A stretch of DNA of 64,000 bases from an uncultured Prevotellaceae bacterium (GTDB lineage: Bacteria; Bacteroidota; Bacteroidia; Bacteroidales; Bacteroidaceae), in NCBI GenBank assembly GCA_947167515.1, contig CAMVIM010000008.1, positions 1 through 64,000 of the forward strand. Direction: 5' to 3'. This document shows positions 1 to 19,271 of the stretch, in pieces. Each line of letters opens with the position of its first letter. Positions within the stretch are counted from its first letter, which is position 1. Below the pieces are notes generated by a model. It did not search any database, was not told where the DNA came from, and saw only the letters and a program-made list of their open reading frames with translations. The position numbers and the translations under genes are program-made.

Positions 1-239
1 AAGGTACAACGACACTACAACTGCTACAACGTGTATTTAAACGAATGCTTACTCATTACACGCTTCTGTCAGTTGTTTCTTCAAGGAAGATGACGAGTGA
101 CAGCCTGAGGTAGATACGGGTGACAGGGTGAGGACGATACAAGTGTGAGGCGGAGGAAGATACAGGTGCGTGAACGTGGTGGATGCAGGTGCACGATGGC
201 GGAGAATGCAGGTGTGCGTTCGCGGTATATGTGGAACCG
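1..239. other. left flank, no gene seen
   Basis: I see no convincing gene here. The only open frame (56-244, minus) is short, has no recognisable motif and is probably chance. No further copies of the CRISPR repeat are visible upstream of position 240, so the array does not continue in this direction within the window. Confidence 0.5.
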
Positions 240-362
240 CACAAAATTTGCTTTCAAATTAGTATCTTTGTAGAGTCATATACACCTGCTTGCCGTTGAT
301 GCTGTAGAACGGCTCGGTTGTGATTTGCTTTCAAATTAGTATCTTTGCAGAGTCATATACAC
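240..362 (+). CRISPR. type II-C-like CRISPR array remnant, two repeats and one spacer
   Basis: Two 46-base repeats lie at 240-285 and 317-362, separated by a 31-base spacer (286-316). From base 246/323 onward the copies differ at one position (T or C after ATCTTTG). The first six bases of copy 1 are degenerate, while copy 2 begins GTTGTGATTTGC. The sequence GTTGTGATTTGCTTTC...ATTAGTATCTTTG matches what I remember of the long repeats in Bacteroides and Prevotella type II arrays. The anti-repeat in the tracrRNA at 5688-5709 pairs with the 5' part of the repeat, which gives rightward transcription. A degenerate first repeat at the 5' end fits type II-C, where arrays grow at the transcriptional 3' end. 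With only two copies the array call would be weak alone; the tracrRNA makes it strong. Confidence 0.85.
318..347 (+). promoter_or_regulatory. promoter embedded in the CRISPR repeat
   Basis: Inside repeat copy 2, TTG (318-320) and TATCTTTG (340-347) are separated by 19 bases, matching the Bacteroidota -33/-7 consensus TTTG-N19-21-TAnnTTTG. A transcript from it would start near the repeat's 3' end. In copy 1 the -7 element survives but the -33 part lies in the degenerate end. Repeat-embedded promoters are known for type II-C arrays in Neisseria; here it is inferred from sequence only. Confidence 0.55.
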
Positions 363-605
363 TTTTTATTTGTGCTTTTCTGAGTGACAGTAACTTCGGC
401 GGAGCCAACGTTAAGATAAACGAACAATTTTCGAAGATTAACGCAGAATGACCGTAAATAAAAGGCTATATGGGGAATAACGACACATCTTTCGCCGCTC
501 GTTTCCTAATTAGGAAACCACAATATTTGTATATTGATGATTCTTTGAAACAAGTAATTTTGTAGATGGAAAGTAAAAAGGAGTAATTAAATGGCAAATA
601 AGTTT
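363..605. other. array-flanking region, no gene seen
   Basis: This stretch follows the last repeat, where the acquisition-side leader of a II-C array would lie. The only open frame (466-675, minus) has no recognisable motif; I could not identify a cas2 remnant in it. It contains a perfect 18-base palindrome, listed separately. The left junction of the inserted cassette should lie here or just beyond. Confidence 0.4.
501..518. promoter_or_regulatory. perfect palindrome, possible operator
   Basis: GTTTCCTAATTAGGAAAC is a perfect 18-base inverted repeat. It lies about 90 bases upstream of the promoter of the downstream HTH regulator gene, so it is a candidate operator. It could equally mark the recombination junction. 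Function is inferred. Confidence 0.35.
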
Positions 606-634
606 TTTGCTTCACAAACAATTTATTACCTTTG
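606..634 (+). promoter_or_regulatory. promoter of the four-gene cassette
   Basis: TTTG (606-609) and TACCTTTG (627-634) are separated by 17 bases. This is a good Bacteroidota-type promoter and places the transcript start near 641, about 34 bases before the first ATG of the operon. Confidence 0.65.
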
Positions 635-674
635 CAAACAAAATGCCTAATTCTATACAAATCAACTTGGAGCA

Positions 675-893
675 ATGGATGATTTACATTATAATTGTAT
701 CAAGCCTGTATTAGAAGAGAAAAACAAGACAGGAACGTGGCTATCAGAACAGATGGGAAGAAACTTTGGAATAGTTTCGAGGTGGATGACGAACAAAGTG
801 CAGCCATCAGTGGAATTGTTATATAATATTGCTAAGTATTTAGATGATGATGTAATGGATTTAGATAGTTGCATCGAAATAAATGAAGCATAG
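675..893 (+). CDS. small XRE-family HTH regulator
   Basis: This 72-residue protein is almost entirely one Cro/cI-type helix-turn-helix. Residues 10-60 have the XRE pattern: TWLSEQMG as helix 2, IVSRWMTNKVQPS as the recognition helix, then LLYNIAKYLDDDV. It is the first gene of the operon, directly downstream of a good promoter. Its stop overlaps a possible start of the next gene. The likely role is autoregulation of the cassette, perhaps through the palindrome at 501-518. The fold is clear; the target is inference. Single-domain regulators of this size often head toxin-like or defence operons. Confidence 0.85.
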   Translation: MDDLHYNCIKPVLEEKNKTGTWLSEQMGRNFGIVSRWMTNKVQPSVELLYNIAKYLDDDVMDLDSCIEINEA

Positions 894-1509
894 GACAAAG
901 ATAAATACATATATGAATCAAACGGAACTGACTGATAATCTTGGGAATTTGCAAGACATGTACAATAATGTGCAAATTTTGTACAATGCCCATGCCAAAG
1001 GAAACCAAGAACTGACCGACTTGGCAAATATGACTGGCTACCTGCTGTGGAATTATACAAAATCATTAATCACATTAAAAAGTTTTCAAAATGCGACATT
1101 GCGTTGTGAACAAGACTTTGCAATCGGAGAATTATGTGTTGTTATTAATGAATGTACCAAAAAGATTATTGGTTTTAGAACAGGGAAGACAAGAAAAGAG
1201 AGTTTATGGATAGATAAAATTGGTAGATATATCACAAGGCATCCGGAATTAACCCAAGAATATAATTCCTTAAAAGAAAAATGGATATCTTATGCTGACA
1301 CGGATGACACACAAGGTGAGATTAAAGATATTCGAGACATCGCTACTCATGGCGATAACGAATTATATAAACTTATAAAACTACATGACACATCAACTTC
1401 AGATGTCATAAACTATTTAGATATATGGGGAAAACTCATGTGGCCAACTGCCAATTTCGTATTTACATGTTTTGAGAATGAATGTCAACAAGAAATTAAT
1501 AAAAGATAG
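883..1509 (+). CDS. HEPN-like protein with R-x4-H motif
   Basis: A protein of 208 residues, or 198 if it starts at the second Met (913). It looks all-helical. Near residues 148-153 it has RDIATH, which fits the R-x4-6-H signature of HEPN nucleases (Arg followed by a polar residue, then His). HEPN proteins often act as RNases in toxin-antitoxin, Abi and CRISPR-linked systems; the assignment here rests on that motif and the helical character. The start at 883 overlaps the HTH gene by 11 bases, suggesting translational coupling, while 913 would leave a 19-base gap. It ends 7 bases before the next gene. A likely role is RNA-cleaving effector of the cassette. A pairwise profile search is needed to confirm the fold. 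Confidence 0.7.
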   Translation: MKHRTKINTYMNQTELTDNLGNLQDMYNNVQILYNAHAKGNQELTDLANMTGYLLWNYTKSLITLKSFQNATLRCEQDFAIGELCVVINECTKKIIGFRTGKTRKESLWIDKIGRYITRHPELTQEYNSLKEKWISYADTDDTQGEIKDIRDIATHGDNELYKLIKLHDTSTSDVINYLDIWGKLMWPTANFVFTCFENECQQEINKR

Positions 1510-1516
1510 CATACAT

Positions 1517-3484
1517 ATGATAACCAAAAATGAATTTGAAGAAATATACCCACTTGTAAACGAAATTGTAGTTTTCACAAACTCATTCGCAAATGAGGAC
1601 AATCCCTTGTTTAAATATCTCAAAACAAGAGGGGATGTCTATGGTTCTAATGACCTTATGAAGATTATACGTTCTAATCTACTTGCCGATTTAGTTCATT
1701 GTTATTTTGCTCTTGGTTATCAGCAAAATTACGATAGTGACTATTATTTATTATTTGATCTGCTTCAATATGCGTTTTGGTTTGAAAAGGATCATTTTTC
1801 TTATGAAGATTTCGAGGAATATGTGAGTTCTCAATCAAATGTACATTATTTCCAGAAAGGCTTTAACAATGCGAAAAGGGATAATGATTCTATTCAGTTT
1901 CCCGCTTTGTACATAAGTTTGATTGGTATTGACCAGTTAAAAGGGGCTAAGTATATTTTGATTCTAAAAAAGATTGTCGCCATGCTATCAGAAAACCATG
2001 ATGAAGGAACAAAATCAAAAGAAGAATCAGTTAAAGGTCTATTGACATATTTAGAGTCTATGTTAGTTTCCAGAGAATATAACAATGAAAGTCTTCAAAT
2101 TGAAGATAATGGAAAATATAATATGATTACAAATGAAGAATATGAAGAACTTTATCTTCTAACAAGAAAGATTGATCGTTTTGTGAAACTTCTTACTAAC
2201 AAAGCTGATTGCAATTCAGAACTGTCCACATATTTAAAAACCATAGGTTGCAGTTTTGACAACAATCTCACTTTAAAAGATTATGTAAAATTAATCATAG
2301 AAAAAGATATCCTTAATTGTTACTTCTTACTTGGTTATCAGCAAAGTTATAAAAGAGAATTATTTATGCTGTTGGATATGATTGAATATAGTTTCAGTAT
2401 TCATGAAGTACCATGGTCATATAAAGATTTTCTGAATGTCTATGAAATATATAACAATTTCTTCTATGAGGTGTTCAATATAAAAAAGAATGCTATAAAG
2501 TCTTATGATTTTCCTGGTTTATACTTATACCTAAGCGAGGTAGGTGACGCTAGAGCTGATGACTATATTAGTATTCTTCAGAATATTGCTATTACATTGT
2601 CCAAAAAACAAAAAGATGGCTCAATCAAAGACCCACGAATGGATGTCTTGTTAACTTATCCGCAGGCTTTTTTATATTCCCAAGACGATAATAATGAGAG
2701 CCAACAAATCGATGATGACAGAGACATTCAACAAATTGAAGAAGATAATAGTGGTTTCAATACAGATAATAATTGCCAAACTATGAATTTATTAAAAGAC
2801 AAATTATATAATGGAATCTCTTTTGAAATAATTGGAGAGGAATATCATAAAGGGTCATCTCTTCCTTTTAGATTGTATCTTCGTATATCAAACTATAATG
2901 ATCAAAAGAAAAACATCAGTGTGGATATAAAATATATCTCTGAAAAACATGGATTAAAGACAAGAAGTGGTATATTTGGAGATTTTGTCCCTGACAACTC
3001 TTTTGTTGACTTGGATGTCGGTTTTGAGGATATAACAGGCGCATATAATGGCGATCGAATCGAAATGGAAATAAATGAGGGGAAATATGCTTCTTTAAGA
3101 TTGATTAGAGAAAGAAACCAATGGGCAATTGTCGAATCCATAGAAAGAAGCACATACAATAGAGAATTGAAGAACAAAGTTGAAAATTTTGAGGCGATAG
3201 AGGAACAATTTGGTATAACTCTACAAAACTTCTCAGTCAAGGTTGAAGATGAACACTCTCTGAAAGTTTTCTGTGAGGTTCTTGCCTTAAACGGTGAAAT
3301 TCCAAAGAATGATTTCACCATTAATATCGCTATATATGATAATAACAACGAAATAGTTTATACTGATAGTGAATCCAAATACGCAGAAGAATTCAAGGGA
3401 TTCGAAGTATTAACCTTTGATTACATTAAACTGGATATTACAGTTGACGAGATAAGCAAAATAAGAATTTATCCCACACGATGA
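1517..3484 (+). CDS. uncharacterised protein with internal tandem duplication
   Basis: I do not recognise this family. The open frame begins at 1472, but ATG 1517 is preferred because it follows the HEPN stop by 7 bases and starts the repeat cleanly. From 1517 the protein has 655 residues. Two copies of a roughly 200-residue alpha-helical unit lie in tandem. Copy 1 starts MITKNEFEEIYPL (1517) and copy 2 starts MITNEEYEELYLL (2123). Both contain an [FL]LGYQQ.Y motif and end in NNES.QI.D. A C-terminal region of about 220 residues looks beta-rich (YLRISNYND, VDIKYISEKHG) and may be one or two Ig-like sandwiches. No catalytic motif is visible, so a scaffold or sensor role is plausible. The stop overlaps the next start as ATGA. 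The gene is strongly AT-rich. Confidence 0.8.
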   Translation: MITKNEFEEIYPLVNEIVVFTNSFANEDNPLFKYLKTRGDVYGSNDLMKIIRSNLLADLVHCYFALGYQQNYDSDYYLLFDLLQYAFWFEKDHFSYEDFEEYVSSQSNVHYFQKGFNNAKRDNDSIQFPALYISLIGIDQLKGAKYILILKKIVAMLSENHDEGTKSKEESVKGLLTYLESMLVSREYNNESLQIEDNGKYNMITNEEYEELYLLTRKIDRFVKLLTNKADCNSELSTYLKTIGCSFDNNLTLKDYVKLIIEKDILNCYFLLGYQQSYKRELFMLLDMIEYSFSIHEVPWSYKDFLNVYEIYNNFFYEVFNIKKNAIKSYDFPGLYLYLSEVGDARADDYISILQNIAITLSKKQKDGSIKDPRMDVLLTYPQAFLYSQDDNNESQQIDDDRDIQQIEEDNSGFNTDNNCQTMNLLKDKLYNGISFEIIGEEYHKGSSLPFRLYLRISNYNDQKKNISVDIKYISEKHGLKTRSGIFGDFVPDNSFVDLDVGFEDITGAYNGDRIEMEINEGKYASLRLIRERNQWAIVESIERSTYNRELKNKVENFEAIEEQFGITLQNFSVKVEDEHSLKVFCEVLALNGEIPKNDFTINIAIYDNNNEIVYTDSESKYAEEFKGFEVLTFDYIKLDITVDEISKIRIYPTR

Positions 3485-5514
3485 ATACGGAATTACAAAA
3501 ATTGAGAGAGTCTCTTATAACTGAGGCAAAGAGTTCTCCTATGCTTTTGTCTGATCTTGCAGGATTGGAAGCATACGTGTCTGAGAGTTACAATAGTCGT
3601 TCGTTTATTGAACTTTTGCAGAATGCAGATGATGCCAATGCAACTAAGTTTTATGTTAAGCGTTCTGGAGATTATTTGTTCGTAGCCAATAATGGTCGTC
3701 CATTTAACATAAAAGATTTAGAAAGCCTTTGTCGTAGTGCATCCTCCAACAAAGTAAGAGGAACAACAATTGGTTATAGAGGTATAGGTTTCAAATCAGT
3801 AGTTAGTTTTGCGAAAGAGATTCACTTGATAAGTGGCAACTTTGAGATTACATTCTCAAAAGAGTTGTCAAAACAAATAATTCCACAGGCTAATAAAGTT
3901 CCTTTGATAAGAATTCCTCATGAGTTGGACAAGTCTATAAAAAATGAATTGTCTGATGAAATTAAAAGAATACAGGATGAGGAATTTGAGACTATTTTTA
4001 TTTTCTCTGGTGTATTGGCTAATCAGATTGACGAAGAGTATACATCATTTGCCAGTACCACATTATTGTTTTTACATAATATACAGGTAATAAAGATAGA
4101 TTTAAGTAAAAAAGTAACTGCGAATATTGCAGAAATTGATAAAAACGAGAAGGGACGCTTTTTAAGAGTTTCTACAACAGATGCAATATCAAATTGGTTT
4201 GTATGCACAGATTCCAATTGCAGCATTGCTTTCTTCATGAATAATGATAAGGTTTCAAGATTATCCAAAAGCGATGCGATTATTCATGCATTCCTTCCTA
4301 CAGAGGATAGTTGCGGATTAGGCGTTGTGGTAAATGGAGATTTTAGTACAGACCCCTCTCGCAGGCATTTGATAATGGATGAAACTACCATTAAGGTCAT
4401 TTCAAAACTCGCTAATCTCTACGCCTCCTTGTTGAAATATGCATTAGCCAATAATGACAAGGGTGCCGTTGATGCATTGATGCCATATTTCGATTTGAAA
4501 CTGATTCAATTGATGAAACAATCATTCGAGAAAGAATTTGCAAAGAACATTAAAGACGCTTTTGGCAAAGAACTTTCAAACATCAAATTGGCTCCTTCAT
4601 GGTTGAATGCTGAGGATTTTGCCAAAATCATGGAAGTTTCTAATTTACCATATATTGCTCCAGAATGCAGTGATGTTCTCGGATTGAGCGATTTCTTAAA
4701 GTATTTGGGAAACAAACCTGAGCTTGTTGAGTCTCTTATAAAAAAAGTAGGACAAGCAGATATTTCTGTATTGGGATATGCCCAAATAGTTGCCGCAGGA
4801 ATCAAAGAGGCTTTAATGAATCACAAAATCCTCTCTTTACCCACTACAGATTTAGTAATTTCGGGTGGAAGGTTGTGTTCACTTAAGGAAATAAATGATA
4901 ATGAAGAAAAAATAGATGAGAGTTATTTGCAATTGTTGGCAGACAATGGAATTTCTGAAAACGATATTAGTCTGTTTTTTAAAAAGGTGGGATTGTCCAA
5001 GATAAATGAAGTGCAATTCTCTGACGAAGACTTTTACGGTAATGATGATGAAGATAAAGAATCATATAATCCCCCAAGTGTTTCTCAGTGGTTTAATGAT
5101 GCTGACATATCTTCAAAGCAGGTCGCAAATAATGAAGGTGTCCAGAAATGGAGAAGTGCAGAAGAAAACACATTAGCAGCATTGAATGCTAACGGATTCA
5201 GACTAAAAGATGTGAGTAAGCAAAATCTCGGATTTGACCTTGAAGGAAGTGACCCAAACGGAAAAAATATTTATATAGAAGTAAAATCTATCGATTATGT
5301 TGGGCAGAAATTCCGAATGACAAACAACGAATTTGCAGCAGCACAATATAAACCAGAAAACTATTATCTTGCTCTTGTTTTTCAAAACAAGGATTCGTTT
5401 GAAATAAGTTTGATAAAAGACCCTGTTAATCGACTTAATCTGACAAGACAAGTCGTGCAATGGGTCTGGGAGTGTACAGATTATGAGTATAAGCCGATGA
5501 AGTTCAAATTATAA
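3481..5514 (+). CDS. HSP90-like (sacsin-type) ATPase with C-terminal DUF3883 domain
   Basis: This 677-residue protein has a GHKL ATPase domain at residues 20-260. The N-box is ELLQNADDA, the G1 box is VANNGRPF, and the G2 lid is TIGYRGIGFKSV, as in sacsin and HSP90-like proteins. Residues 300-540 form a helical middle region. Residues 545-677 resemble DUF3883, a PD-(D/E)xK-like fold, with an FDLEGSD...YIEVKS core that supplies Asp and the E-x-K pair. Such ATPase-DUF3883 fusions recur in bacterial defence islands. A plausible reading is that ATP-driven conformational change gates a nuclease. It is the last gene of the operon, overlaps the previous stop by four bases, and ends 25 bases before the cas9 remnant. 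Confidence 0.85.
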   Translation: MNTELQKLRESLITEAKSSPMLLSDLAGLEAYVSESYNSRSFIELLQNADDANATKFYVKRSGDYLFVANNGRPFNIKDLESLCRSASSNKVRGTTIGYRGIGFKSVVSFAKEIHLISGNFEITFSKELSKQIIPQANKVPLIRIPHELDKSIKNELSDEIKRIQDEEFETIFIFSGVLANQIDEEYTSFASTTLLFLHNIQVIKIDLSKKVTANIAEIDKNEKGRFLRVSTTDAISNWFVCTDSNCSIAFFMNNDKVSRLSKSDAIIHAFLPTEDSCGLGVVVNGDFSTDPSRRHLIMDETTIKVISKLANLYASLLKYALANNDKGAVDALMPYFDLKLIQLMKQSFEKEFAKNIKDAFGKELSNIKLAPSWLNAEDFAKIMEVSNLPYIAPECSDVLGLSDFLKYLGNKPELVESLIKKVGQADISVLGYAQIVAAGIKEALMNHKILSLPTTDLVISGGRLCSLKEINDNEEKIDESYLQLLADNGISENDISLFFKKVGLSKINEVQFSDEDFYGNDDEDKESYNPPSVSQWFNDADISSKQVANNEGVQKWRSAEENTLAALNANGFRLKDVSKQNLGFDLEGSDPNGKNIYIEVKSIDYVGQKFRMTNNEFAAAQYKPENYYLALVFQNKDSFEISLIKDPVNRLNLTRQVVQWVWECTDYEYKPMKFKL

Positions 5515-5539
5515 TAAAGATGGAAACCACTAACAATTC

Positions 5540-5566
5540 TAAATCAAAGCCTAAAATCTTTTTCAT
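5540..5566 (-). pseudogene. first nine codons of cas9, rest missing
   Basis: On the minus strand, ATG at 5566-5564 starts a frame reading MKKILGFDL, then diverges to ELLVVSIFIII and stops near 5504. Bacteroidota Cas9 proteins commonly begin MK[KR]ILG[LF]DLGT.SIGWA, the RuvC-I motif, so the match covers the conserved start up to the second motif residue. It has a full promoter upstream and sits divergent from the tracrRNA, the usual II-C layout. I infer that cas9 was cut at about 5539 when the cassette arrived. Nine residues are few; context is what makes the call credible. Confidence 0.65.
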
Positions 5567-5614
5567 ATTGGTTTCGGTGTTTCTAATTTGAAGGTTTTAG
5601 AGTTATTTTGCCGC

Positions 5615-5647
5615 CAAATTTACGGAAAAACAATAAAATTGTCAAAA
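5615..5647 (-). promoter_or_regulatory. orphan cas9 promoter
   Basis: Reading on the minus strand, TTTTG (5647-5643) and TAAATTTG (5622-5615) are 20 bases apart, a near-consensus Bacteroidota promoter. It points at the cas9 start codon remnant 49 bases away and, beyond it, into the 3' end of the cassette. It could therefore produce antisense RNA to the HSP90-like gene. Confidence 0.55.
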
Positions 5648-5651
5648 TAAA

Positions 5652-5683
5652 TTTGTAGATATTCTAAAAACATCGTAATTTCG
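5652..5683 (+). promoter_or_regulatory. tracrRNA promoter
   Basis: TTTG (5652-5655) and TAATTTCG (5676-5683) are 20 bases apart; the -7 element differs from TAnnTTTG at one position. The expected start near 5690 coincides with the beginning of the anti-repeat. Confidence 0.55.
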
Positions 5684-5687
5684 CCTC

Positions 5688-5772
5688 ACTAATTTGAAGC
5701 AAATCACAATAAGGATTATTCCGTTGTGAAAACATTCAGGTTTCTGCCCTCGTCCTTAACGGGGGCTTTTTT
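5688..5772 (+). ncRNA. tracrRNA of a type II-C CRISPR system
   Basis: Bases 5688-5709 are complementary to repeat bases 318-340 with a single one-base bulge, so this is the anti-repeat. It is followed by AAGGATTATTCCGTTGTG, which resembles the nexus region of Cas9 tracrRNAs (compare AAGGCTAGTCCGTTATC in the S. pyogenes RNA). Next come a small hairpin (CAGGTTTCTG) and a GC-rich terminator hairpin with six T. All parts expected of a functional RNA appear intact, although no cas9 is present in the window. It may serve a Cas9 encoded elsewhere or be a relic. Confidence 0.85.
5746..5772 (+). terminator. Rho-independent terminator of the tracrRNA
   Basis: GCCCTCG (5746-5752) pairs with CGGGGGC (5760-5766) around a seven-base loop, including a T-G pair, and is followed by TTTTTT (5767-5772). 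Confidence 0.8.
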
Positions 5773-5889
5773 GTTGCAACTGGGGCGATTTTTCTGTCGG
5801 AAACGTGTTCTTTTGAAAACGGGTGTGTTCCCACGAATTGATTTAGGTCTTTCATCTTGTTATTTTGTGATTGTTAATAAATATCGGCT

Positions 5890-5976
5890 ACAAAGGTACA
5901 CCTATGTTGTTCCAAATCACGGTACAGGCTTTGTTTTTTTCGGTATTGTGGCCACAAAGGTACACATTATATTGTT
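5890..5976 (-). repeat. two direct repeats carrying minus-strand -7 elements
   Basis: ACAAAGGTACAC plus an AT-rich TTGTT tail occurs at 5890-5911 and 5954-5976. Read on the minus strand each contains TACCTTTG. They may be promoters reading leftward toward the old cas9 region or a degenerate repeat pair. No gene is visible in 5773-6068 otherwise. Confidence 0.35.
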
Positions 5977-5983
5977 ATAAAAC

Positions 5984-6011
5984 AAAAAAGCAGGAGGTTT
6001 CCTGCTTTTTT
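5984..6011. terminator. bidirectional terminator
   Basis: AAAAAAGCAGGA and TCCTGCTTTTTT form a 12-base stem around a four-base loop. A and T runs on the two sides allow termination in both directions. It lies between region 1 and the convergent lipoprotein gene ending at 6069. It is followed by imperfect repeats of GAGAGTTGA up to 6055. Confidence 0.8.
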
Positions 6012-6068
6012 TTGGGGGGGGTAGGGTTGTTGAGAGTTGAGAGTTGAGAGTTGCGGGTGAGGGTTTGG

Positions 6069-6977
6069 TCATTCTTCTGCCTTGAGCCAGAACTGGGGGG
6101 TCTTCCATTCGAGCATGGGGAAGTAGTAGGTGCAGACGATGTAGGTGGGGGAGGAGGCGGTGGAGGTGGCAGCTTCCTGCTTGTCCAGCAGTTGGGCTAT
6201 CTGGTCGTCGGTCAGCTTGGAGGGGTCGAAGTTCATGACGTAGCCTTCCTCGGTGGTCTTGGCCATCGACTTGGGATAGGAGAAGAGGACTTCTCTTTCG
6301 CTGTCCTGGGAATAGTTGATGGCGGTGTCTGTTTCGCTGTATTCGATGAGGCTGATGCGCGACTGGGGGGTGACTATGATGCCGTTGGTGAGCTGGCCGA
6401 CCCAGAGCTTTTCTTCGCCCCAGAGTTCGTTCACCTCGATCTGCATGGAGAGGCCTTTGTATTTGCCTTCAGTTTTCACCAGTGAGGTGAGTCCTATTTC
6501 GGATGCCACCTGCTCCATCAGTTCGGCGGTGATGGGTTCTGGCTCGATGTCTTCGGTTGCGCTCTTGAGCAGGTAGGCGGCTTCGACGTCCACGCTGCCA
6601 TCTTTCACGCTCACACGCCAGTAGTCGCCTTCTTCGCCCAGTACGGCGAAGACTTGGCCTGCGTAGGTGCTCTGGGTATGGGTCACATAGCCTTGGGGCA
6701 CTTTGTCGTCGCTCCACTGATAGCGGAAGTCAATCATGTCTGACTCTTCGTCTTCCATGCAGTTGATCAGGTGGGGGCTGTTGGGGTCGGGTGCTTTGAG
6801 CAGGGGCATGTCGTCTTGTGTGGTGATGACGAACTTCTGCACTGTGGGCACCTTCACGTTCAGTGCCGTGGAGGTCTCTTCGTTTTCACTTGTGGTGGCA
6901 GGGGCGTCTTTTCCCTTGCAGCTCCACATCATCAGGGATGCGCAGCATCCCAGCAGCATCAATGTCCATTTTTTCAT
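6069..6977 (-). CDS. lipoprotein of unknown function
   Basis: A 302-residue protein with a lipoprotein signal peptide: MKKWTLMLLGC..., lipobox-like LMMWSC with the lipidated Cys near residue 20, then a charged, low-complexity spacer. Residues 45-145 look like a bacterial SH3-like fold, with hydrophobic beta segments such as GQVFAVLGEEGDYWRVSV around a WRVSV core. The rest is unrecognised. It starts 21 bases after the stop of the RyR-channel gene and is probably co-transcribed with it, so it may be an envelope-side partner of that channel. An SH3-like assignment is tentative. The gene is much more GC-rich than the cassette to its left. Confidence 0.8.
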   Translation of the reverse strand: MKKWTLMLLGCCASLMMWSCKGKDAPATTSENEETSTALNVKVPTVQKFVITTQDDMPLLKAPDPNSPHLINCMEDEESDMIDFRYQWSDDKVPQGYVTHTQSTYAGQVFAVLGEEGDYWRVSVKDGSVDVEAAYLLKSATEDIEPEPITAELMEQVASEIGLTSLVKTEGKYKGLSMQIEVNELWGEEKLWVGQLTNGIIVTPQSRISLIEYSETDTAINYSQDSEREVLFSYPKSMAKTTEEGYVMNFDPSKLTDDQIAQLLDKQEAATSTASSPTYIVCTYYFPMLEWKTPQFWLKAEE

Positions 6978-6998
6978 TGTCTTGTCTGTTTTTGGGGG

Positions 6999-9191
6999 TT
7001 AGTATTGGGTTGTCATGTTTTCGGTCATCTTCATGATCCACGGGATGTAGCGTGTGAATTCGCTGTCGAGTTCCTTGATGGTGCCGAGTTGGTCGAAGGG
7101 TCGTATGTCGTGGTGGATGAAGAGGTCTTTGTTTTTCTTGAGTTGGTCGGCGTATTGGGGTGAGGCGTTTTTGTCCTCTTTGGATTGGGGTTTGCGGTAG
7201 CCCATGAGGAGTTTCTCCACGTTCCATCGGTTGTGCTCCATGATGGCGAGGGCTTCGGTCTCTTGGTCGGAGAGCGTGTCGAAGTCATGGGTGGTGTCAT
7301 CGGGCTTGAGGTGGCGCATGGCTCGGAGTGTGGCGAGTTTGGTGCGCATGGCGTAGGCGCTGTAGAGGTTGGACCATTTGAGTGCCACGCTGAGTTTTTT
7401 CCATTCTGCGTTGGCGCGTTCCCAAATTTGTTGGGTGGGAATAGCTTCGAGGGTGAGGACTCCGGTGAATTTGTAGGTGGTGTAGTTGGCGGTGGCGTAG
7501 AGGTAGTTGATGAGTTTGGCGCGCTGGAGCGAGTGCTCGTCGGCGCTGTAGGCGGTTTCTTCCATGCCGAAGGGGTAGATGTTGGCGTAGCGTGCCTGAT
7601 GTTTCTGGATGGTCAGGTTGCCGTTCTCGACGATGGCATAGGGGAGTTTCAGGTCTTCTGTGCGCTGGTCGGTGGTGCGGAGGTTGGTGACGAAGTTGTC
7701 TGAACGGTCTTGGCGGATGAAGACGGGGATTTCGTTGCTGTAGATTTCGTCGGGCATGTTCATGCTGAGCACGAAGTTGCTGCGCTGATTGGCGAGGGCG
7801 AGGAAGATGGACAGGTATTGATGGTCTTTGTCGTTGGCCCAGCGGGTGATTTCGTCTTGTATGGGCTGGGAGAAGACGTCGCCTTTGATGAATTCGAATT
7901 CGACATCGAGGAAGTTGCTGTTGGAGCCGTGGAACTTGAGGAATTCGGTGCGGACTGGGTCTTGTGGTTGGGGGGTGGGGGTGGAGAGGTCGTGGTAGAG
8001 GTAGGACTGCACCTCGAAGAAGTGTCGGTTGCGGATGATGAATTCGTCTTTTTCCTTGTCGGCGTTGATGTCGATGAAGGTAATGCGTGTGCGGCGGCTG
8101 CTGTTCCTCTGGTCGGTTGTGCAGGAGTCGTGCATGAAGTTGGGGAAGTGGAGCACTTGTGCGGCTTCCATGGCAAAGGCTACGGCGAAGTGGGTGGTGC
8201 CGACGAAGACGAGGTGTACGTATTTGGGGTCGTCAGCGCTGATGCCATTGCCATAGACGGAGGGGTAGGGGTATGTTTGTTTGCGATTGTCGAAGTCGCG
8301 GTATTGGCGTCTGATGAAGACTTGTTTGGCCCAGCCGGCATGGGTGTTGTAGGGGATGAACTCGATGCCGAGCGCGCTGACTTTCTGGAAGATGTCGGTG
8401 GTCTTGAAGGTGGCGTAGGTGTCGAGATCCTTGAACACGCAGGTGATGCGGGCGGGGCGCTGCTGTATGTGTGGCTGGTCGAGGTAGCGGCAGATGCAAT
8501 CGACGCATTCCACATTGATGGCGTCGTGGGAGGATTTCTGGAGGTTGCCCACGATGTAGATTTGTTCGGCGGATTCGAGATGGATGTCGGGGTAGGTGTC
8601 GGCGGTGATGCGGTGGCCGTAGTTGATGATGATGTGTTCGAGTTGGTCCTGACGGAAAGACTTACGCAGTTTCTCTCTGATTTCTTTGGCGTTCATGGAA
8701 CTGAGAATGAGAACGTAAGCATCCTTATCCTTATCAAATACATGAGTGATGAAAGAGGGCAAGGTGTTGTCGTATCCCATGATGATGTAGTGGCCCGAGA
8801 GGAGGTAGTGGATGCGTCCCTCCTTGTGGTCTTTCACTCGGCTCTCGATGGATGTGGTGATGAGTCCGATGATGATGCCGTTGAAGATGAAGGCACCGAG
8901 CAGGAAGGAAATGGTGCTGGCAAAGAGCATCCACCCGTGCACTCCGTTGTCGATGTAGAGATTGTTGAGCGCATTGGAGTCGATGAGCAGATAGAGGGGC
9001 AGAAGCCAGGGGTTCAGGTCGTGTGAGCGGCAGAACGCTTGCCAGTTGCTGCCCGAGAGTGCCAGCATCAGGTAGGAGAAGGCCAGCACGACGAGGAATA
9101 CGACTCCGAGCACGGCGAGCTGCTTGAGGAAATTCTGCGACAGGATTCGGTCGAACCGGAGCCAGAGTCTTCTTTGTGTTTTCTTTTTCAT
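6999..9191 (-). CDS. two-TM channel-like protein with TrkA-N-like region and RyR domain
   Basis: A 730-residue protein. Hydrophobic segments at about 24-46 and 90-113 flank a possible re-entrant loop (LLPLYLLIDS), the layout of 2-TM channels. No TVGYG potassium filter is present, recalling CASTOR/POLLUX-type channels. Residues 125-480 look like tandem RCK/TrkA-N Rossmann units (GHYIIMGYDNTLPSFI; VHLVFVGTTHFAVAFAME). Residues 645-712 fit the RyR domain (PF02026): ALAIMEHNRWNVEKLLMGY followed by a conserved L.PFDQL end. RyR domains are named after ryanodine receptors and have been predicted to sense ADP-ribose-type nucleotides in prokaryotes. In a TIR-rich island the protein could be a membrane effector or sensor gated by a TIR product. 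It is preceded by a TM-coiled-coil gene and followed by a lipoprotein gene in the same direction. Confidence 0.8.
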   Translation of the reverse strand: MKKKTQRRLWLRFDRILSQNFLKQLAVLGVVFLVVLAFSYLMLALSGSNWQAFCRSHDLNPWLLPLYLLIDSNALNNLYIDNGVHGWMLFASTISFLLGAFIFNGIIIGLITTSIESRVKDHKEGRIHYLLSGHYIIMGYDNTLPSFITHVFDKDKDAYVLILSSMNAKEIREKLRKSFRQDQLEHIIINYGHRITADTYPDIHLESAEQIYIVGNLQKSSHDAINVECVDCICRYLDQPHIQQRPARITCVFKDLDTYATFKTTDIFQKVSALGIEFIPYNTHAGWAKQVFIRRQYRDFDNRKQTYPYPSVYGNGISADDPKYVHLVFVGTTHFAVAFAMEAAQVLHFPNFMHDSCTTDQRNSSRRTRITFIDINADKEKDEFIIRNRHFFEVQSYLYHDLSTPTPQPQDPVRTEFLKFHGSNSNFLDVEFEFIKGDVFSQPIQDEITRWANDKDHQYLSIFLALANQRSNFVLSMNMPDEIYSNEIPVFIRQDRSDNFVTNLRTTDQRTEDLKLPYAIVENGNLTIQKHQARYANIYPFGMEETAYSADEHSLQRAKLINYLYATANYTTYKFTGVLTLEAIPTQQIWERANAEWKKLSVALKWSNLYSAYAMRTKLATLRAMRHLKPDDTTHDFDTLSDQETEALAIMEHNRWNVEKLLMGYRKPQSKEDKNASPQYADQLKKNKDLFIHHDIRPFDQLGTIKELDSEFTRYIPWIMKMTENMTTQY

Positions 9192-9276
9192 GATGTGGAT
9201 GCCGATATGGGAAAATACTTTTTTATGAGTCGGTTTGGCCAGATGAGTCTGTGGGTTTTTCGGCTTTGAAGAGGTC

Positions 9277-9795
9277 TTACTCCGGCTTCTCCATCTTCAG
9301 AATGCTTTCCAGCTCCTTGACATCAATATCCTTCATCTCCTTCAGACCTGTTTTCTTGCTTTGCATGCCCCGAATCATCTGGCACAGCAGCAGGTTGTAA
9401 CGCAGGCATTCCGTCTTGTCAAGATGTATCTCCTTGTCCTTGCTGGCGTGGGTCTTGGCCTGGTCTTGCTGCATGTCCAAGAGTTTGTCACACAGTTTCA
9501 TCCTCAGTTCCCGTTCCTTGTCCTCCAGTTTCCACTGCCTCTCTCTGCACTCACGCTGGCTTTCACCGATGAGGCTCAGCACTTTCCACACCAGCAGGAA
9601 TGCAGCGGCAATGACGGCGATGCCCACCACATGTCCACAGATTTCTTCCACAATGTTCACGTCGGCTTGATTGGTGCCGCAGGCTTGCAGGGCCGTATTC
9701 CATGTTTCCCGCATCTCTGTGGCAAGGGTGCACATGTCTCCGCATGCGTGGCTCGTCACCGAGTCGCCCGAACAGAATAAAATGCTTGTTGTCAT
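9277..9795 (-). CDS. single-TM coiled-coil protein
   Basis: A 172-residue protein, family not recognised. The first 50 residues are Cys-rich (six Cys), a TM helix spans about 53-76 (VVGIAVIAAAFLLVWKVL), and residues 78-120 form a charged coiled coil (RQWKLEDKERELRMKL). The C-terminal half should be cytosolic. It has its own promoter with the island's CTAACCTAAA box and leads a minus-strand run into the RyR-channel and lipoprotein genes (85 and 21 base gaps). A membrane adaptor role is a guess. Confidence 0.75.
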   Translation of the reverse strand: MTTSILFCSGDSVTSHACGDMCTLATEMRETWNTALQACGTNQADVNIVEEICGHVVGIAVIAAAFLLVWKVLSLIGESQRECRERQWKLEDKERELRMKLCDKLLDMQQDQAKTHASKDKEIHLDKTECLRYNLLLCQMIRGMQSKKTGLKEMKDIDVKELESILKMEKPE

Positions 9796-9806
9796 ATTCC
9801 TTGGTC

Positions 9807-9835
9807 TTTAGGTTAGCATTTCTTCCACAAAGGTA
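9807..9835 (-). promoter_or_regulatory. promoter -7 element plus CTAACCTAAA leader box
   Basis: Reading leftward, TACCTTTG (9835-9828), 11 bases, then CTAACCTAAA (9816-9807), then ATG at 9795. The box would lie at the extreme 5' end of the transcript. The same arrangement recurs at four other starts in this island. Confidence 0.6.
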
Positions 9836-9952
9836 GGGAATAGAAATGGAGTGGCAAAGAAAAATGGGAAGAAAAATGGACAAAAAGGTTTCGTTTCACT
9901 TGCAAAGTGAATGCTTTTCATTGAAAGTGGCAAGAATGTGGGGAATTTCTCC

Positions 9953-9960
9953 TATCTTTG
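9953..9960 (+). promoter_or_regulatory. promoter -7 element for the gene at 10026
   Basis: TATCTTTG followed by CAGCAGGA. It lies inside the longest open frame, which begins at 9846, and so argues for the downstream start at 10026. A very similar stretch (TATCTTTGCAGCAGGA) precedes the primase gene at 17421. Confidence 0.6.
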
Positions 9961-10025
9961 CAGCAGGAACGGAGAGGTGGTGCGGAGGAGTTTGTAAACG
10001 GTTTAGAAAAGAAAGGAGAAAAGCT

Positions 10026-10748
10026 ATGATGTGGTTCAAGAAACAAAAGGCGTTCACCGTGGAGAAGACGGATGTGTGCGTGAGGATCATGGGACGGACG
10101 GTACACTATCCGAGCCTGTTGGATGCGGTGCAGCATGCAGGTCCCTGGCTGGAGTACGATTTGGCGGCGATGGTGCTCTACAATGTCCAATACCGCGACT
10201 GTCTGCGCAGCGAGGGCATGGAGGACCTGAAGGCGAGGTTGCTGAGGGAGGCGCCGGTGCTGGTTGGGCAGGAGAAAGTGATGCGGGGGATGGAGGAGTG
10301 GGTGCAGCGGCATCTGCCTCTGGCGGATTTCGACATCCAGTGCTACAACATTCACGATGTGGTCACCATCGAGGGATTCGACTTCTGCGGATGGCAGGAC
10401 GTGCATGACCACATCGAACTGATGGCAACGAAACGGATAGACCACTTCGACGTCTGGAGCCGCGAACCGAAGAGCACCGCGGAATCTGTCCATGTGGGCT
10501 GCCTCTATGCCAGCTATCCCACCTTCGACAGCAGTGATTGGGGCGATGACCGCACCTACGACAACTACCTTATCCGCCGCCATCCCATCACCGAGAGCGA
10601 GATGGCGGAACTGGCCAGGGTGAAGTATGCGGACAACTACCAGCGTGTGAACGAGTGTTTGCCAGCCCACCTCCTGCCTGTGCTCTACTACAAGGGCGAT
10701 GGCGACTGCATGCTGCTGGCCACGGCGAAGCATAGTTCCATCCATTAG
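10026..10748 (+). CDS. hypothetical protein, about 240 residues
   Basis: The open frame extends back to 9846, but the promoter at 9953 and a good ribosome binding site (AAAGGAGAAA) place the start at ATG 10026 or 10029 (MMWFKKQKAF). That gives 240 residues. I see no signal peptide, membrane segment or known domain. The sequence is rich in Trp, Tyr and His (WLEYDLAAMVLYNVQYRDC; DFDIQCYNIHDVVTIEG) and looks globular and cytosolic. It is divergent from the TM-coiled-coil gene and convergent with the BatD/vWA gene, so it stands alone in the island. Function unknown. Confidence 0.75.
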   Translation: MMWFKKQKAFTVEKTDVCVRIMGRTVHYPSLLDAVQHAGPWLEYDLAAMVLYNVQYRDCLRSEGMEDLKARLLREAPVLVGQEKVMRGMEEWVQRHLPLADFDIQCYNIHDVVTIEGFDFCGWQDVHDHIELMATKRIDHFDVWSREPKSTAESVHVGCLYASYPTFDSSDWGDDRTYDNYLIRRHPITESEMAELARVKYADNYQRVNECLPAHLLPVLYYKGDGDCMLLATAKHSSIH

Positions 10749-10777
10749 GTCTGCTCACACCCGGTTGTACTTCCTGA

Positions 10778-12463
10778 TTAGAAATCAGTTTCAGCATCAG
10801 ATATGATACCATCATACAATTTGTATAGAAGGCTGATATTGGGTGCGAACGTCTTTTCAGGCGATAAGTCAGGTGTGGGTGCATTGCGAAGACTCTCCCT
10901 GACTTGGCGGATGGCCGCTGGAATCTGCTTCTTGTTGTCAATCCAGATGAAGAATCCGTTGGTTGCCTGTGCAATGCTTTTCACGTCTTCCATATTCTGC
11001 GTGTTGTCCATCTTTATGAATCCTAAATCTTTTCCTAGGGGATAAAACAAGGAATCCTTCTTGCTGGCAAAGGCTATCACGTCAACCCTGATCTTGTTTT
11101 GTAATAAGATGTTGATGAGTGTGGATTCGGATAGGTGGCTGGCGTTGTCAGAGCCATCAGTCAACAGCAAAACAGAAAAGGGAGGATGCCCTGATGTCAA
11201 AGCGCCTTCACGTAAAGCGCTGGCCAAGATGGCATCGTAGATGGCTGAACCGTCATTTCCTGCTGAAGGAGAGACATCGGAGAGGTTGTCCAATTCCGTC
11301 CGTGTTGGATAATGTGGTTTCTTTGCAAACAATGTGACAGAATGATCAGATGGGAGATTGCTCTGCATCAGTTTGACAAATAGAGTCTCCAAGTCAAGGA
11401 ACGATTCCGAAAGCGTGTCATTCCTGGCGAAGAGACTTGAAGAGCGGTCGATGACGAGACCTATGCCATGAGGTTGCTCAGACATGTTTGGCTTGGCATC
11501 TCTCGTTGGCATCTGCTTGTCTGCCACGTGTATCTCTATCGGGTTAGTTTGAACGATGGTGTCATGATTGATGTAATTGTTTCCACCATTAAAGAAAGCC
11601 TCAAAGGGATCCACATCGGGCTTTGGGGTTTGGTACCAAGCCGTGAAAATCATGGGATCTATCCGAATCGTGCCGGATTGTAGAGGAATAATCGAATACT
11701 TCGCCCAAAGAACCGAATTGACGGAAGCGCCATTGTATTCAGTTGTTTCAACTTTCTTCTGTTCCGGCAGGTCATGCTCCCTCCAATAGGCATTGCTGAC
11801 AGGAAGAACGGAAAAGGGGGTCATCTGCGTCACGTTCATGTTGGTGTACAAACGTATTTCACAATCAAAGCTGTCTCCGAGGCTGATGTCTGTCTTGTTC
11901 ACCTTCGCTTCAACCACAAAAAGGTTTTCAGCCTTAGGGGCATCGCTCGTCGATGGTGCCGCTTGCGTTGGTTGAACCGCTTCTGTCGTCACGCGAACCG
12001 TGAATGGTTGGGATGTCAAAGTTTCACCCGTCGTCGATTTCGTAGTCATGGAAGGTATGGTGAAAGAACCAGGGCGGGTGAATTTGATGTAATAAGAATA
12101 CATCATACCGTATAAAACGGATTGTTTTCCGTTTCTGAAAGCATATGATGTTTGGGTGGATTTTGATGGCCCATAGAGCAGTTCATGATGAGGATGGTTC
12201 CAATTCCATTGAGGAGGAAGGATACCCGCCAACGAATCTCGGCTCGTGTACAGAAAACCGATACGAAAATTCTTTCCCACCTGAACAGCAGGGTCTGCTC
12301 TGACAACCAATTGGTTGACTAGGCTGTCATCGAGCACTTGCCCTTGAACATGGGGAGAAATGATGATGCATAAAAGCAACCAGATAAAACGTGAAGACCT
12401 CCAAATGTTTCCAAAAACAATGGTCAATGTGGAGTTGTTGAATTGATACTTGCGTGGTTCCAT
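10778..12463 (-). CDS. BatD-like protein with vWA domain
   Basis: The open frame starts at 12484, but the promoter -7 element (12491-12484) overlaps that codon, so ATG 12463 (MEPRKYQFNN) is preferred, giving 561 residues. A signal-anchor or signal peptide (FIWLLLCIIISPHVQG) comes first. Residues 40-330 have the beta-sandwich character of BatD (aerotolerance family): VNKTDISLGDSFDCEIRLY and IIPLQSGTIRIDP. Residues 340-540 are a von Willebrand A domain with the metal site DRSSS and LLLTDGSDN. BatD and vWA are normally separate proteins of the Bat operon; a fusion is unusual. The start carries the island box. It follows the TIR-FG-GAP gene on the same strand. A periplasmic ligand-binding role is likely. 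Confidence 0.8.
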   Translation of the reverse strand: MEPRKYQFNNSTLTIVFGNIWRSSRFIWLLLCIIISPHVQGQVLDDSLVNQLVVRADPAVQVGKNFRIGFLYTSRDSLAGILPPQWNWNHPHHELLYGPSKSTQTSYAFRNGKQSVLYGMMYSYYIKFTRPGSFTIPSMTTKSTTGETLTSQPFTVRVTTEAVQPTQAAPSTSDAPKAENLFVVEAKVNKTDISLGDSFDCEIRLYTNMNVTQMTPFSVLPVSNAYWREHDLPEQKKVETTEYNGASVNSVLWAKYSIIPLQSGTIRIDPMIFTAWYQTPKPDVDPFEAFFNGGNNYINHDTIVQTNPIEIHVADKQMPTRDAKPNMSEQPHGIGLVIDRSSSLFARNDTLSESFLDLETLFVKLMQSNLPSDHSVTLFAKKPHYPTRTELDNLSDVSPSAGNDGSAIYDAILASALREGALTSGHPPFSVLLLTDGSDNASHLSESTLINILLQNKIRVDVIAFASKKDSLFYPLGKDLGFIKMDNTQNMEDVKSIAQATNGFFIWIDNKKQIPAAIRQVRESLRNAPTPDLSPEKTFAPNISLLYKLYDGIISDAETDF

Positions 12464-12598: not shown

Positions 12599-13906
12599 TT
12601 AATCGAAAACGTATTCATTGCCATTCCACTTGACCACATTGTCCTCGTCATAAATTAGGTCATGCATTCCGTTTGTCTTGGATGAAAGAATTCCAATACG
12701 ATCGACTCCAATACCATCATAGTTAAGGATATTGCCATTGAGTATTATATTGAAAAAAAGTTTATCCCACCTGTCCCAATACGTACATTCAAAATAGTCT
12801 TCTTCACCATTGCCATCTAAATCATAACTCATACGAATAGTTTCTTCTTCTTTACCATTATGAAAGTCTGATGAACGGATCTCTTGTAAAGCAACGATGG
12901 AATTTTTCTTCGATGATTCCACTCTAACGGCATCACCTTGCTTCAGTATATACCTTTCTTTTGAATTGTAATTGGAGTCAGTGTTAAAATCTTCATTTGT
13001 GTCAATTATCACAACAGATTTCTGGCCTTTCCACTCTTCTATAGAGGGTTCCTCCCAGACATTTCCGCCAAAACTGTTTGAAACAGAAAAGTAACCATTC
13101 CCAGTGTAGCTCACAAAGAAAAATGAACTGCCAATAGCATTACCGCCACAAGCTTGTACGTTTTCAATTAAGGCATCCTCTATACCATCTCCATCGAAGT
13201 CTTCCTGTGCTACAATATTAAAACAGATGTCCTTTGGTATTTCTATTGTATATTCATATCCATCTACATTTGCATAAAGTTCATTAAAAAACATATCAGA
13301 TTCCTTTTTCTTTCCATAGAAATTAATATTGACAGCCTTTGCATAAATTTCGGGCTTATCATTCGCAGGTGCATGATGGGAAATAGCATAGACAATGCCT
13401 GCTATCGCCAGAATGGCAAGCAAGGCTACTGCAAAATGTTTTACAAGACGACTTTTAGGGCGTGACTTTAAGAATCGTTTTTTTAAGTCTTCATAAAACG
13501 CATTAAAATGGTAACGATTATATTCTGGACCATTCTTCATGCTGATACCCGCTATGTCGCTTGGCAGATTATTTGGAAACCCATTCGTGCCAGAAAGAAA
13601 GACTGGCACAATGTTCTTGTTTTTCTTGAGTGCATGAGCAAGTTCACACCGCATCCAGTCATTCTTGGGATTGAACTTGGGGTCAAGTGTGCGATCAAAA
13701 GCATGTTGGTCGACTATCAAGATGAAGTCGGTGCATTGATCTATCCTCTCAAGTAGCTGAGTGTCGAAATTTCCGCTGCGCAAGGTGTCAATGTCAAAAC
13801 TTACCTTATAGCCATCTCTGACCAGCAGGTCATTTAGATGTTTTGCTGTGTCATAGCCACCCTCACGTCGGTAGCTGATAAAGATGTCGTATTTTTCCTG
13901 TGCCAT
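12599..13906 (-). CDS. TIR-TM protein with FG-GAP/EF-hand-like C-terminus
   Basis: A 435-residue protein. The TIR domain (5-145) starts KYDIFISYRREGG and carries WMRCE (W84, E88), which matches the W-x3-E glutamate of catalytic TIR NADases. A TM helix lies at about 158-176. The external part (190-435) has two acidic loops, DFDGDGIED and DLDGNGEED, like the D-x-D-G-D-G loops of FG-GAP/VCBS or EF-hand proteins, which often bind calcium. Topology would put the TIR in the cytosol and the sensor outside. It lies between the TIR-WD40 and BatD/vWA genes, all on the minus strand, and has its own promoter with the leader box. The C-terminal half is AT-rich compared with its neighbours. Confidence 0.85.
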   Translation of the reverse strand: MAQEKYDIFISYRREGGYDTAKHLNDLLVRDGYKVSFDIDTLRSGNFDTQLLERIDQCTDFILIVDQHAFDRTLDPKFNPKNDWMRCELAHALKKNKNIVPVFLSGTNGFPNNLPSDIAGISMKNGPEYNRYHFNAFYEDLKKRFLKSRPKSRLVKHFAVALLAILAIAGIVYAISHHAPANDKPEIYAKAVNINFYGKKKESDMFFNELYANVDGYEYTIEIPKDICFNIVAQEDFDGDGIEDALIENVQACGGNAIGSSFFFVSYTGNGYFSVSNSFGGNVWEEPSIEEWKGQKSVVIIDTNEDFNTDSNYNSKERYILKQGDAVRVESSKKNSIVALQEIRSSDFHNGKEEETIRMSYDLDGNGEEDYFECTYWDRWDKLFFNIILNGNILNYDGIGVDRIGILSSKTNGMHDLIYDEDNVVKWNGNEYVFD

Positions 13907-13913
13907 AGTTGGG

Positions 13914-13942
13914 TTTTAGGTTAGATTCTTTTTGCAAAGTTA
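13914..13942 (-). promoter_or_regulatory. promoter -7 element plus CTAACCTAAA leader box
   Basis: TAACTTTG (13942-13935), 10 bases, CTAACCTAAAA (13924-13914), then ATG at 13906. The -7 element is part of a short stretch (13934-13957) that also occurs in degraded form at 9903-9926. Confidence 0.6.
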
Positions 13943-13997
13943 ATGCTTTTAATTGAAAGCAGCAAATGCTGGGGAAAAAATCTTCACATCCGTACTT

Positions 13998-16910: not shown

Positions 16911-16967
16911 GCCGTTGTTTTTTGGGGGTAAAAGGTTTCTCTTTCTGTATAGACGAATGATGTTAAA

Positions 16968-17060
16968 TCAACAAAAAAGATGATCGGTCTTGATGGCTGG
17001 AAGTATATAGCTGTCCTTTCGGCTATAGCTAATGAACACATCATATTTTTCCTGTGCCAT
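16968..17060 (-). pseudogene. truncated TIR gene start
   Basis: ATG at 17060 opens a 30-codon frame, MAQEKYDVFISYSRKDSYI..., whose first 14 residues closely match the TIR-FG-GAP protein (MAQEKYDIFISYRR). The promoter, CTAACCTAAA box and bases up to the ATG also match that gene almost exactly. The frame then loses similarity and stops at 16968. It looks like the stub of a former TIR gene or a recombination donor. It lies directly upstream of the TIR-WD40 gene on the same strand, so its promoter may now drive that gene. The 192 codons upstream of 17060 in the same frame are not coding. Confidence 0.7.
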
Positions 17061-17067
17061 AGTTGGG

Positions 17068-17094
17068 TTTAGGTTAGTTCCGGTGGCAAATGTA
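17068..17094 (-). promoter_or_regulatory. promoter -7 element plus CTAACCTAAA leader box (TIR remnant)
   Basis: TACATTTG (17094-17087), 9 bases, CTAACCTAAA (17077-17068), then ATG at 17060. It could supply the transcript of the TIR-WD40 gene, which has no clear promoter of its own. Confidence 0.5.
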
Positions 17095-17586
17095 GGGATT
17101 TTTCTTTGTATGACAAACAAATTGGTGATTTTTTGTGGGTTTTTGTGAAAAATGGAAGGGGAGGGGGTGGCGTATGTCGTGTGGCGGTGGGAGTGTGAGG
17201 TTTGTTCCGTAAGGCTCGCGAGGGTAGTGGGGGAATGGTCGCGAGGTTTGTGGAAGGAGGGCGGGTGACAGTTGAGAGTTGGCGGTTGACGGTTGACAGT
17301 TGACAATTGACAGTTGAGGGTTGTGGAGTGAGGAGTGGGGTGGTGGGGCTTTGAAAAGATTTTTTTTGGGGGGAAAAAAAATATGTGGGGAGTTTTGTTG
17401 GTGGGTTGGGGAATTTTGTGTATCTTTGCAGCAGGATTTGGGAGTGAAGGGGCTGGGATGCTCCGTAGCTTGAGAATCGGGGGCGGCAACCCTGAAAATA
17501 CGGCTATGAAAAGGGTGGTGTTTGGAAAGCACGTGCCTTTGTTAAAGTGACGAAAAGATTGTGAAACTATTAAAATCAAAACCATT
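17095..17586. other. intergenic region with simple repeats and primase promoter
   Basis: No gene is seen. Bases 17267-17325 are imperfect copies of GTTGACAGTTGA-like units. Bases about 17210-17232 hold a reverse copy of the CCTCGCGAGC-TTACG unit found at 34793 and 55147. TATCTTTG at 17421-17428 is the likely promoter of the primase gene, leaving a leader of about 150 bases with the coding-like but uninformative frame 17335-17550. Confidence 0.5.
17421..17428 (+). promoter_or_regulatory. promoter -7 element for the primase gene
   Basis: TATCTTTG preceded by a TTTTG-rich stretch and followed by CAGCAGGA. It is the only good -7 element in the 490-base gap and points at the gene starting at 17587. 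Confidence 0.5.
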
Positions 17587-19071: not shown

Positions 19072-19074
19072 AAG

Positions 19075-19271
19075 CAGGTGGTGAAAGTGGATGGGCAGGT
19101 GGTGAAAGTGGTGGTGTTTTCTTTCTTAAAAACACGCTTGTATTCTATTGACAAACAAGGATGTGTGAATGAAGTAGGTGGTGAAAGTGGTGAAAGTGGT
19201 GTTATAAAAAAAGTTTTTGAAAAATGAAAATATAGACAGTTTTTGAAAAAAAACACCACCTTCACCACCTG
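19075..19271. repeat. iterated 16-base repeats between primase genes
   Basis: CAGGTGGTGAAAGTGG occurs at 19075-19090 and 19096-19111 (21-base spacing). It recurs with one change at 19175-19190, and in reverse orientation with one mismatch at 19256-19271. Shorter fragments lie at 19191-19201 and near 19331-19345. The rest of 19072-19407 is AT-rich and has no gene. The layout (iterons beside an AT-rich stretch and replication genes) resembles a plasmid-type origin, but this is inference. Confidence 0.6.

Follow-up and report, generated by a model that had tools for sequence, protein, structure and literature searches.

Bacteria are known to lose their cas genes while the CRISPR repeats remain. 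Among the described systems closest to the locus investigated here is the type II-C CRISPR-Cas system of Bacteroidota, with its 47-nt repeat. The window, i.e. the whole 64,000-nt stretch of DNA from an uncultured Prevotellaceae bacterium that was analysed, agrees with this system in the repeat, the tracrRNA, the layout and the start of cas9, but differs from it in that cas9, cas1 and cas2 are gone and two repeats are left. A further parallel is phage ICP1, for which a nuclease is described as occupying the genomic locus of the phage CRISPR-Cas system (PMC8263062). Both cases have another weapon at a CRISPR-Cas locus; the ICP1 case, however, is a single chimeric nuclease in a phage genome, whereas in the window the locus is bacterial, still contains relics and has four genes in its cassette. 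Very probably, the II-C locus of the window lost its cas genes, a 5.2-kb four-gene segment stands in their place, the relics are inert and the cassette acts alone.

CRISPR relics and junctions

The genome measures 3.68 Mb in 74 contigs and is 98.85% complete, and the window covers the initial 64 kb of its contig C8; as the first base of the window is the start of the contig, just 239 nt are known to the left of the array. An array remnant at 240-362, proposed in an earlier sequence-only reading of this DNA, proved to be real. On the plus strand, repeat comparison identified a trailer-end copy of the II-C repeat with an altered 5′ end (240-286), which is followed, as read from the sequence, by the sole surviving spacer of 30 nt (287-316) and by a second repeat (317-362) recognized by its Rfam fit and by comparison with relatives. 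The complete II-C repeat has 47 nt, and this second copy retains 46 of them, being short of the final base alone. The two copies are 98% identical across 40 nt (246-285 versus 323-362), and with up to three mismatches allowed, the window contains two occurrences of an 18-nt repeat core, against a chance expectation of 0.10. The stretch 317-363 aligns over its full length to Rfam CRISPR-DR49, but under the gathering score (34.2 versus 41 bits, E 0.011). An exact match of the spacer was not found in viral contigs. Within the second repeat (318-347) lies a promoter-like sequence, TTG-N19-TATCTTTG, directed at the cassette. This motif of the II-C repeat resembles the Bacteroidota promoter consensus, and since the repeat holds it, each II-C repeat may launch its own transcript.

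On the right edge, similarity to relatives and duplex energy revealed a tracrRNA on the plus strand (5688-5772), including the anti-repeat and the terminator hairpin. Over its 85 nt it is 96.5-98.8% identical to the tracrRNA of six relatives, and the stretch upstream of it shows 73-80% identity. The repeat:anti-repeat duplex of the window has an energy of -29.0 kcal/mol, equal to that in three of five intact relatives (-27.5 kcal/mol in the other two), while none of 1000 shuffles did better than -21.6 kcal/mol. The first nine codons of cas9 (MKKILGFDL), recognized by similarity to the Cas9 starts of relatives (MKKILGLDLG), are all that remains of this gene; they lie on the minus strand (5540-5566), where the frame from 5566 reads MKKILGFDLELLVVSIFIII and meets a stop after 20 codons. 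Also on the minus strand, motif reading gave a promoter-like cas9 motif, TTG-N20-TAAATTTG (pattern TTG-N20-TAnnTTTG), at 5645-5615. The sequence-only reading had named all three of these features, and they were borne out, the promoter as a promoter-like motif; its reservation that the pairing might be due to chance did not hold, as the real duplex was stronger than every shuffle.

The comparison set consisted of 45 genomes of the same genus, the own genome included, and 19 of them matched the 238-nt right edge. Five intact loci were fetched (L024 from G012, L025 from G027, L026 from G033, L027 from G010 and L028 from G023), and all five showed a common layout in which the array is followed by cas2, cas1 and cas9, encoded on the opposite strand, and these by the tracrRNA. 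In each of them, tblastn verified all three cas genes, with two distinct Cas9 lineages; in a sixth locus (G042), cas9 is interrupted by a contig end. The distance from repeat end to anti-repeat is 5332 nt in the window versus 5635-6198 nt in the five relatives. In the window, tblastn of positions 1-12000 gave no match to cas1 or cas2, though the five relatives match. No cas9 was found in the own genome by TIGR01865, a weak test in which 0 of 14 control genomes passed the cut-off, and none by a query with the Cas9 protein of a relative, which matches in 16 of the 45 genus genomes. In five relatives, cas9-cas1-cas2 lie between an array and a tracrRNA of the same kind as here. Together with the pairing beyond shuffles, this supports the replacement that the sequence-only reading had preferred, and the possibility raised there that no relative would have cas9 at the site did not come true. 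A separate observation was made in L143 (G031 C68, 9370-13620), where the same kind of array and cas1-cas2 accompany a very different Cas9-like protein of 1416 aa; perhaps the effector alone was swapped.

The junctions lie at the repeat end (362/363) and inside codon 10 of cas9 (5539/5540), similarity to relatives on the right stopping at codon 9-10. On the left, the five relatives have CATATACACC followed by TGAATC (L025, L027), ACAATC (L026, L028) or CTGAATC (L024); the window reads CATATACAC up to the junction and TTTTTATTTG from there on. An AT-rich operon of about 4.9 kb had been described in this gap. The AT-rich cassette is there, but the foreign DNA extends over 363-5539 (5.2 kb), with the genes at 675-5514. 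GC content is 33% in the cassette versus 50-54% in the flanks; AT-richness alone is nevertheless weak evidence, because the relic on the tracrRNA side (5540-5775) itself has 31.8% GC and the cas genes of relatives 40-42.5% (three measured).

The new DNA begins with 121 nt (363-483, strand not assigned) of truncated dispersed intergenic elements adjoining the left junction, detected by a DNA search of genus genomes; the query 363-674 matched 24 of the 45, the own genome included, mostly inside 363-483. The element is broken at its contact with the CRISPR repeat. Such short intergenic Prevotella elements (window 363-483; L091-L099) are sometimes arranged in tandem with steps of about 73 nt, and several end with a promoter-like box, GTAACTTTGC. 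DNA similarity to the best relative of the cassette, L049, spans 620 to 5513; by these limits, the new DNA arrived with intergenic sequence at both ends, about 260 nt at the left and 25 nt at the right. Recombination between conserved edges, as suggested in the sequence-only reading, found no support: the repeat end meets a truncated dispersed element, no shared sequence was seen by eye at the junctions, and no duplication was seen at the edges. Illegitimate recombination would be the simplest account of these edges.

The window stems from a single assembly, which leaves room for a chimera at either junction (362/363, 5539/5540) and counts against replacement. An assembly or binning artefact of this kind would have attached foreign cassette DNA to the end of a CRISPR contig, and the start of the window at a contig end and the sharp change in GC would fit it. 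Both CRISPR edges, however, flank the cassette on one 124-kb contig, and other assemblies, too, contain isolated II-C repeats next to other systems; we regard an artefact as improbable.

The four-gene cassette and its relatives

The cassette comprises four genes in the same direction (plus strand) with operon-like spacing: 675-893, 883 (or 925)-1509, 1517-3484 and 3481-5514. The first encodes a possible HTH protein of 72 aa, with a weak match to HTH_3 (E 0.011, 16.2 bits versus a cut-off of 23). The second (883-1509) encodes a helical protein of 208 aa, or 194 aa if started at 925, in which alignment and a structure model were used to examine an Rx4H motif. R137, D138 and H142 (numbered in the 194-aa form) are invariant in all three aligned sequences, in agreement with an Rx4-6H motif. 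HEPN RNases are described as having an Rx4H form with a polar residue after the R (PMC3710099). The 194-aa protein resembles HEPN toxins of that description in both features (PMC3710099), but unlike them it gave no family or fold match: profile searches found no family, and the structure-fold search with the helical model (pLDDT 77.6, built from three sequences) gave generic bundles in which a HEPN fold was not confirmed.

The third gene (1517-3484) encodes a protein of 655 aa, here called protein B, which was characterized by self-comparison, a model and its relatives. Its N-terminal part contains two related segments (about 1-200 and 202-402), which a model of low confidence shows as helical. 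The C-terminal half (about 420-655) is beta-rich and directly precedes the ATPase in relatives. Profile searches found no family match for protein B as such; CARF_m1 matched at E 0.00096, with all single stretches below passing.

The fourth gene (3481-5514) encodes, according to profiles and alignment, a GHKL/sacsin-type ATPase of 677 aa with a C-terminal NOV_C domain (DUF3883) and the motif D586...E600-V-K602. It scored 75.6 bits against NF047352 (cut-off 50), in agreement with a GHKL nucleotide-binding domain, and 52.5 bits against PF13020 (cut-off 22.1), in agreement with NOV_C; the score against Pfam SACS was slightly under the cut-off (32.4 versus 32.8 bits). In an alignment of 13 ATPases, made up of the window protein and all named relatives except L052 and L056 (12 of 14), E44, N48, D79, the glycine motif, D586 and K602 were invariant and E600 was found in 12 of 13. 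DUF3883 (NOV_C) has been named a novel REase domain (PMC3710099). Among known defence profiles, PADLOC TmtA matches the ATPase at E 3.3e-57, the best match spanning profile positions 11-530 of 1538; the TmtA profiles differ in length (1063-1782 positions versus 677 aa), and the 194-aa protein and protein B gave no family match as such. With these four proteins, the cassette looks like a defence module, and motifs of catalytic type are conserved in it. Farther along the window (12599-28835), the translations suggest TIR-like proteins, one of them with WD40-like repeats, as well as a large TPR/CHAT-like protein and a primase/helicase pair.

The nearest ATPase, with 89-91% identity, belongs to one species of the same genus. 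A full-length ATPase is present in two of the 45 genus genomes and protein B in four of 399 family genomes, the own genome included in both counts. The 14 named relatives of the ATPase (L048-L061) match over at least 663 of 677 residues, and in other genomes the flanking genes of the cassette relatives are different. L049 contains the complete four-gene set and a second B-like gene, L050 carries a relative of the 194-aa protein, and L053 has two B-like halves. Different genes stand alongside the ATPase in L051, L052, L054 and L058, a short fragment of protein B and no more is retained in L055 and L056, and protein B was not detectable in L057, L059, L060 and L061, where ATPase identity is 30-33%. 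In L061 (3131-12507), the distant ATPase lies among what we take to be PglZ-like and BrxL-like genes in a BREX-type setting. A description of this cassette family was not found in the published literature.

The sequence-only reading had also allowed for a new operon that uses the leftover RNA parts, i.e. an RNA-guided system working with the remaining crRNA and tracrRNA. The tracrRNA, the anti-repeat pairing and the cassette-directed promoter motif of the repeat are indeed intact, but just one spacer remains and profile searches found no Cas-like domain in the cassette proteins. A scan was carried out on 33 loci (L047-L079) that had been retrieved by a match to protein B or the ATPase, with flanks of up to 8 kb, shorter at contig ends; this number counts duplicates and near-duplicates as well as partial homologues of distant kinship. 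II-C repeats or anti-repeats at up to four substitutions were seen only in L075, which is the window itself, and 12-mers repeated at least three times at 50-90-nt steps were absent throughout; the same search was positive in three control loci whose arrays are known. With II-C repeats or anti-repeats at 0 of the 32 other loci, and a regular array of at least three copies likewise at 0 of 32, use of the RNA parts by the cassette found no support and appears extremely unlikely.

Isolated II-C repeats in other genomes

The repeat core was found in 89 of 399 family genomes, the own genome included, and a reversed control pattern in none. By hand count, 28 genomes besides the own had one or two core copies. 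Surroundings were viewed in 21 of these (23 sites) and at two own sites, giving 25 sites; left aside were seven genomes (G005 with its single copy, G056, G117, G138, G264, G325 and G360), some of them because the match lies at a contig end. Five sites had an intact II-C operon (G217, G230, G269, G359, G394) and 20 had no II-C cas genes in the examined DNA, the genome-wide cas9 search covering genus members.

The window itself is one of the 20 isolated sites. At three others, as a raw count, a different CRISPR type lies 3′ of the repeat: type I-B in G007, V-A in G032 and I-C in G337. PADLOC, applied to 20 selected neighbour genes, matched genes within about 3 kb on the 3′ side at three sites, namely type I restriction in G066 C59 (with a PDC-S01 gene also 5′ of the repeat), PDC-S01 at one G180 site and PDC-M19 on own contig C6. 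At ten sites none of these neighbours was found (G006, G066 C48, G072, G153, G220, G236, G263, G295, G314, G363); G066 C48 has type III restriction about 4 kb away, and G220, G236 and G314 have at most 3.2 kb of DNA on the 3′ side. Several sites, with such neighbours as well as lacking them, match part of the repeat only and may be promoter look-alikes. ORF lists and a marker search showed no CRISPR locus of another type 5′ of the repeats, where G032 has about 0.65 kb.

At the remaining three sites (G204, G303 and the second G180 site), repeats are followed within about 30-140 nt by a tracrRNA tail, with cas genes absent. This arrangement was observed at L177 (2776-2900), L189 (3572-3690) and L183 (11780-11980), and such sites are apparently bare deletions. 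They would fit a sub-case of replacement in which loss came first, the cas operon being deleted and the cassette later entering the vacant site. Unlike the bare-deletion sites, the window keeps cas9 codons and the whole anti-repeat, and because these persist, a single event is equally simple; loss first has a slightly less than even chance of being correct.

In G007, which gave no match with the Cas9 query, the I-B locus contains Cas6 and Cas1b (NCBIfam) and a repeat 12-mer occurring 23 times, and just 22 nt separate its terminal repeat from a single II-C repeat oriented as in the window (L100, G007 C25, 13550-15089). The right flank is common to G007 and the window (a 730-aa gene, presumably TrkA-like, at 86% DNA identity). 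The left flank differs, and as its counterpart in the own genome sits on contig C21, the ancestral site is just half anchored, a point against replacement. G032, likewise without a Cas9 match, encodes Cas12a (TIGR04330, 1257 bits) and has a cas2-like gene; the array there ends with a repeat 29 nt from two II-C repeats (L142, G032 C34, 13662-19159). In G337 C3 (L184, 2989-12294), a lone II-C repeat is immediately followed by a WYL gene and the type I-C cas locus. Since three CRISPR loci of other types abut II-C repeats, chance looks unlikely; this applies less to the restriction cases. A second lone II-C repeat of the own genome (L023, C6, 8045-8091) is flanked on one side by PDC-M19 genes together with a type IIG restriction gene, on the other by what we take to be a Phd/YoeB-like pair.

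No published account was found of II-C scars that lie, as a set, next to other immune systems. Tentatively, and with rather less confidence than in its opposite, we suggest that the II-C array end is a recurrent exchange point across Prevotellaceae, at which II-C operons were swapped for whole immune systems (I-B, I-C, Cas12a, restriction, GHKL cassette), trailer-end repeats being left as a scar with its 3′ end turned towards the incoming system, whose expression may be aided by the promoter-like site in the repeat.

Proposed course of events and meaning

In the preferred replacement, a II-C CRISPR-Cas9 locus would have lost cas2, cas1, all of cas9 beyond nine codons and probably most of its array, and the 5.2-kb AT-rich segment with its four-gene defence cassette would have taken their place, probably from another Prevotella-type genome. 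Because no Cas9 was found, the repeats, spacer, tracrRNA and cas9 promoter should confer no immunity and would be relics. The cassette most probably acts on its own. It may be a phage sensor driven by ATP, with a nuclease-like domain and, in the version found here, a partner that cuts RNA. The GHKL ATPase and the beta-rich half of protein B might change their state upon a phage cue, after which the ATPase would act via its nuclease-like NOV_C domain and/or release the HEPN-like protein. The latter would cut RNA and thereby halt the infected cell, and the HTH-like protein may repress the operon.

The ATPase cassette appears as a recurring core with changeable partners, open to phage testing. 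The window preserves the swap of an immune system with both broken edges legible, and isolated II-C repeats provide a sequence tag for counting swaps of this kind in many genomes. The swap of one immune system for another may have been repeated several times in related bacteria.
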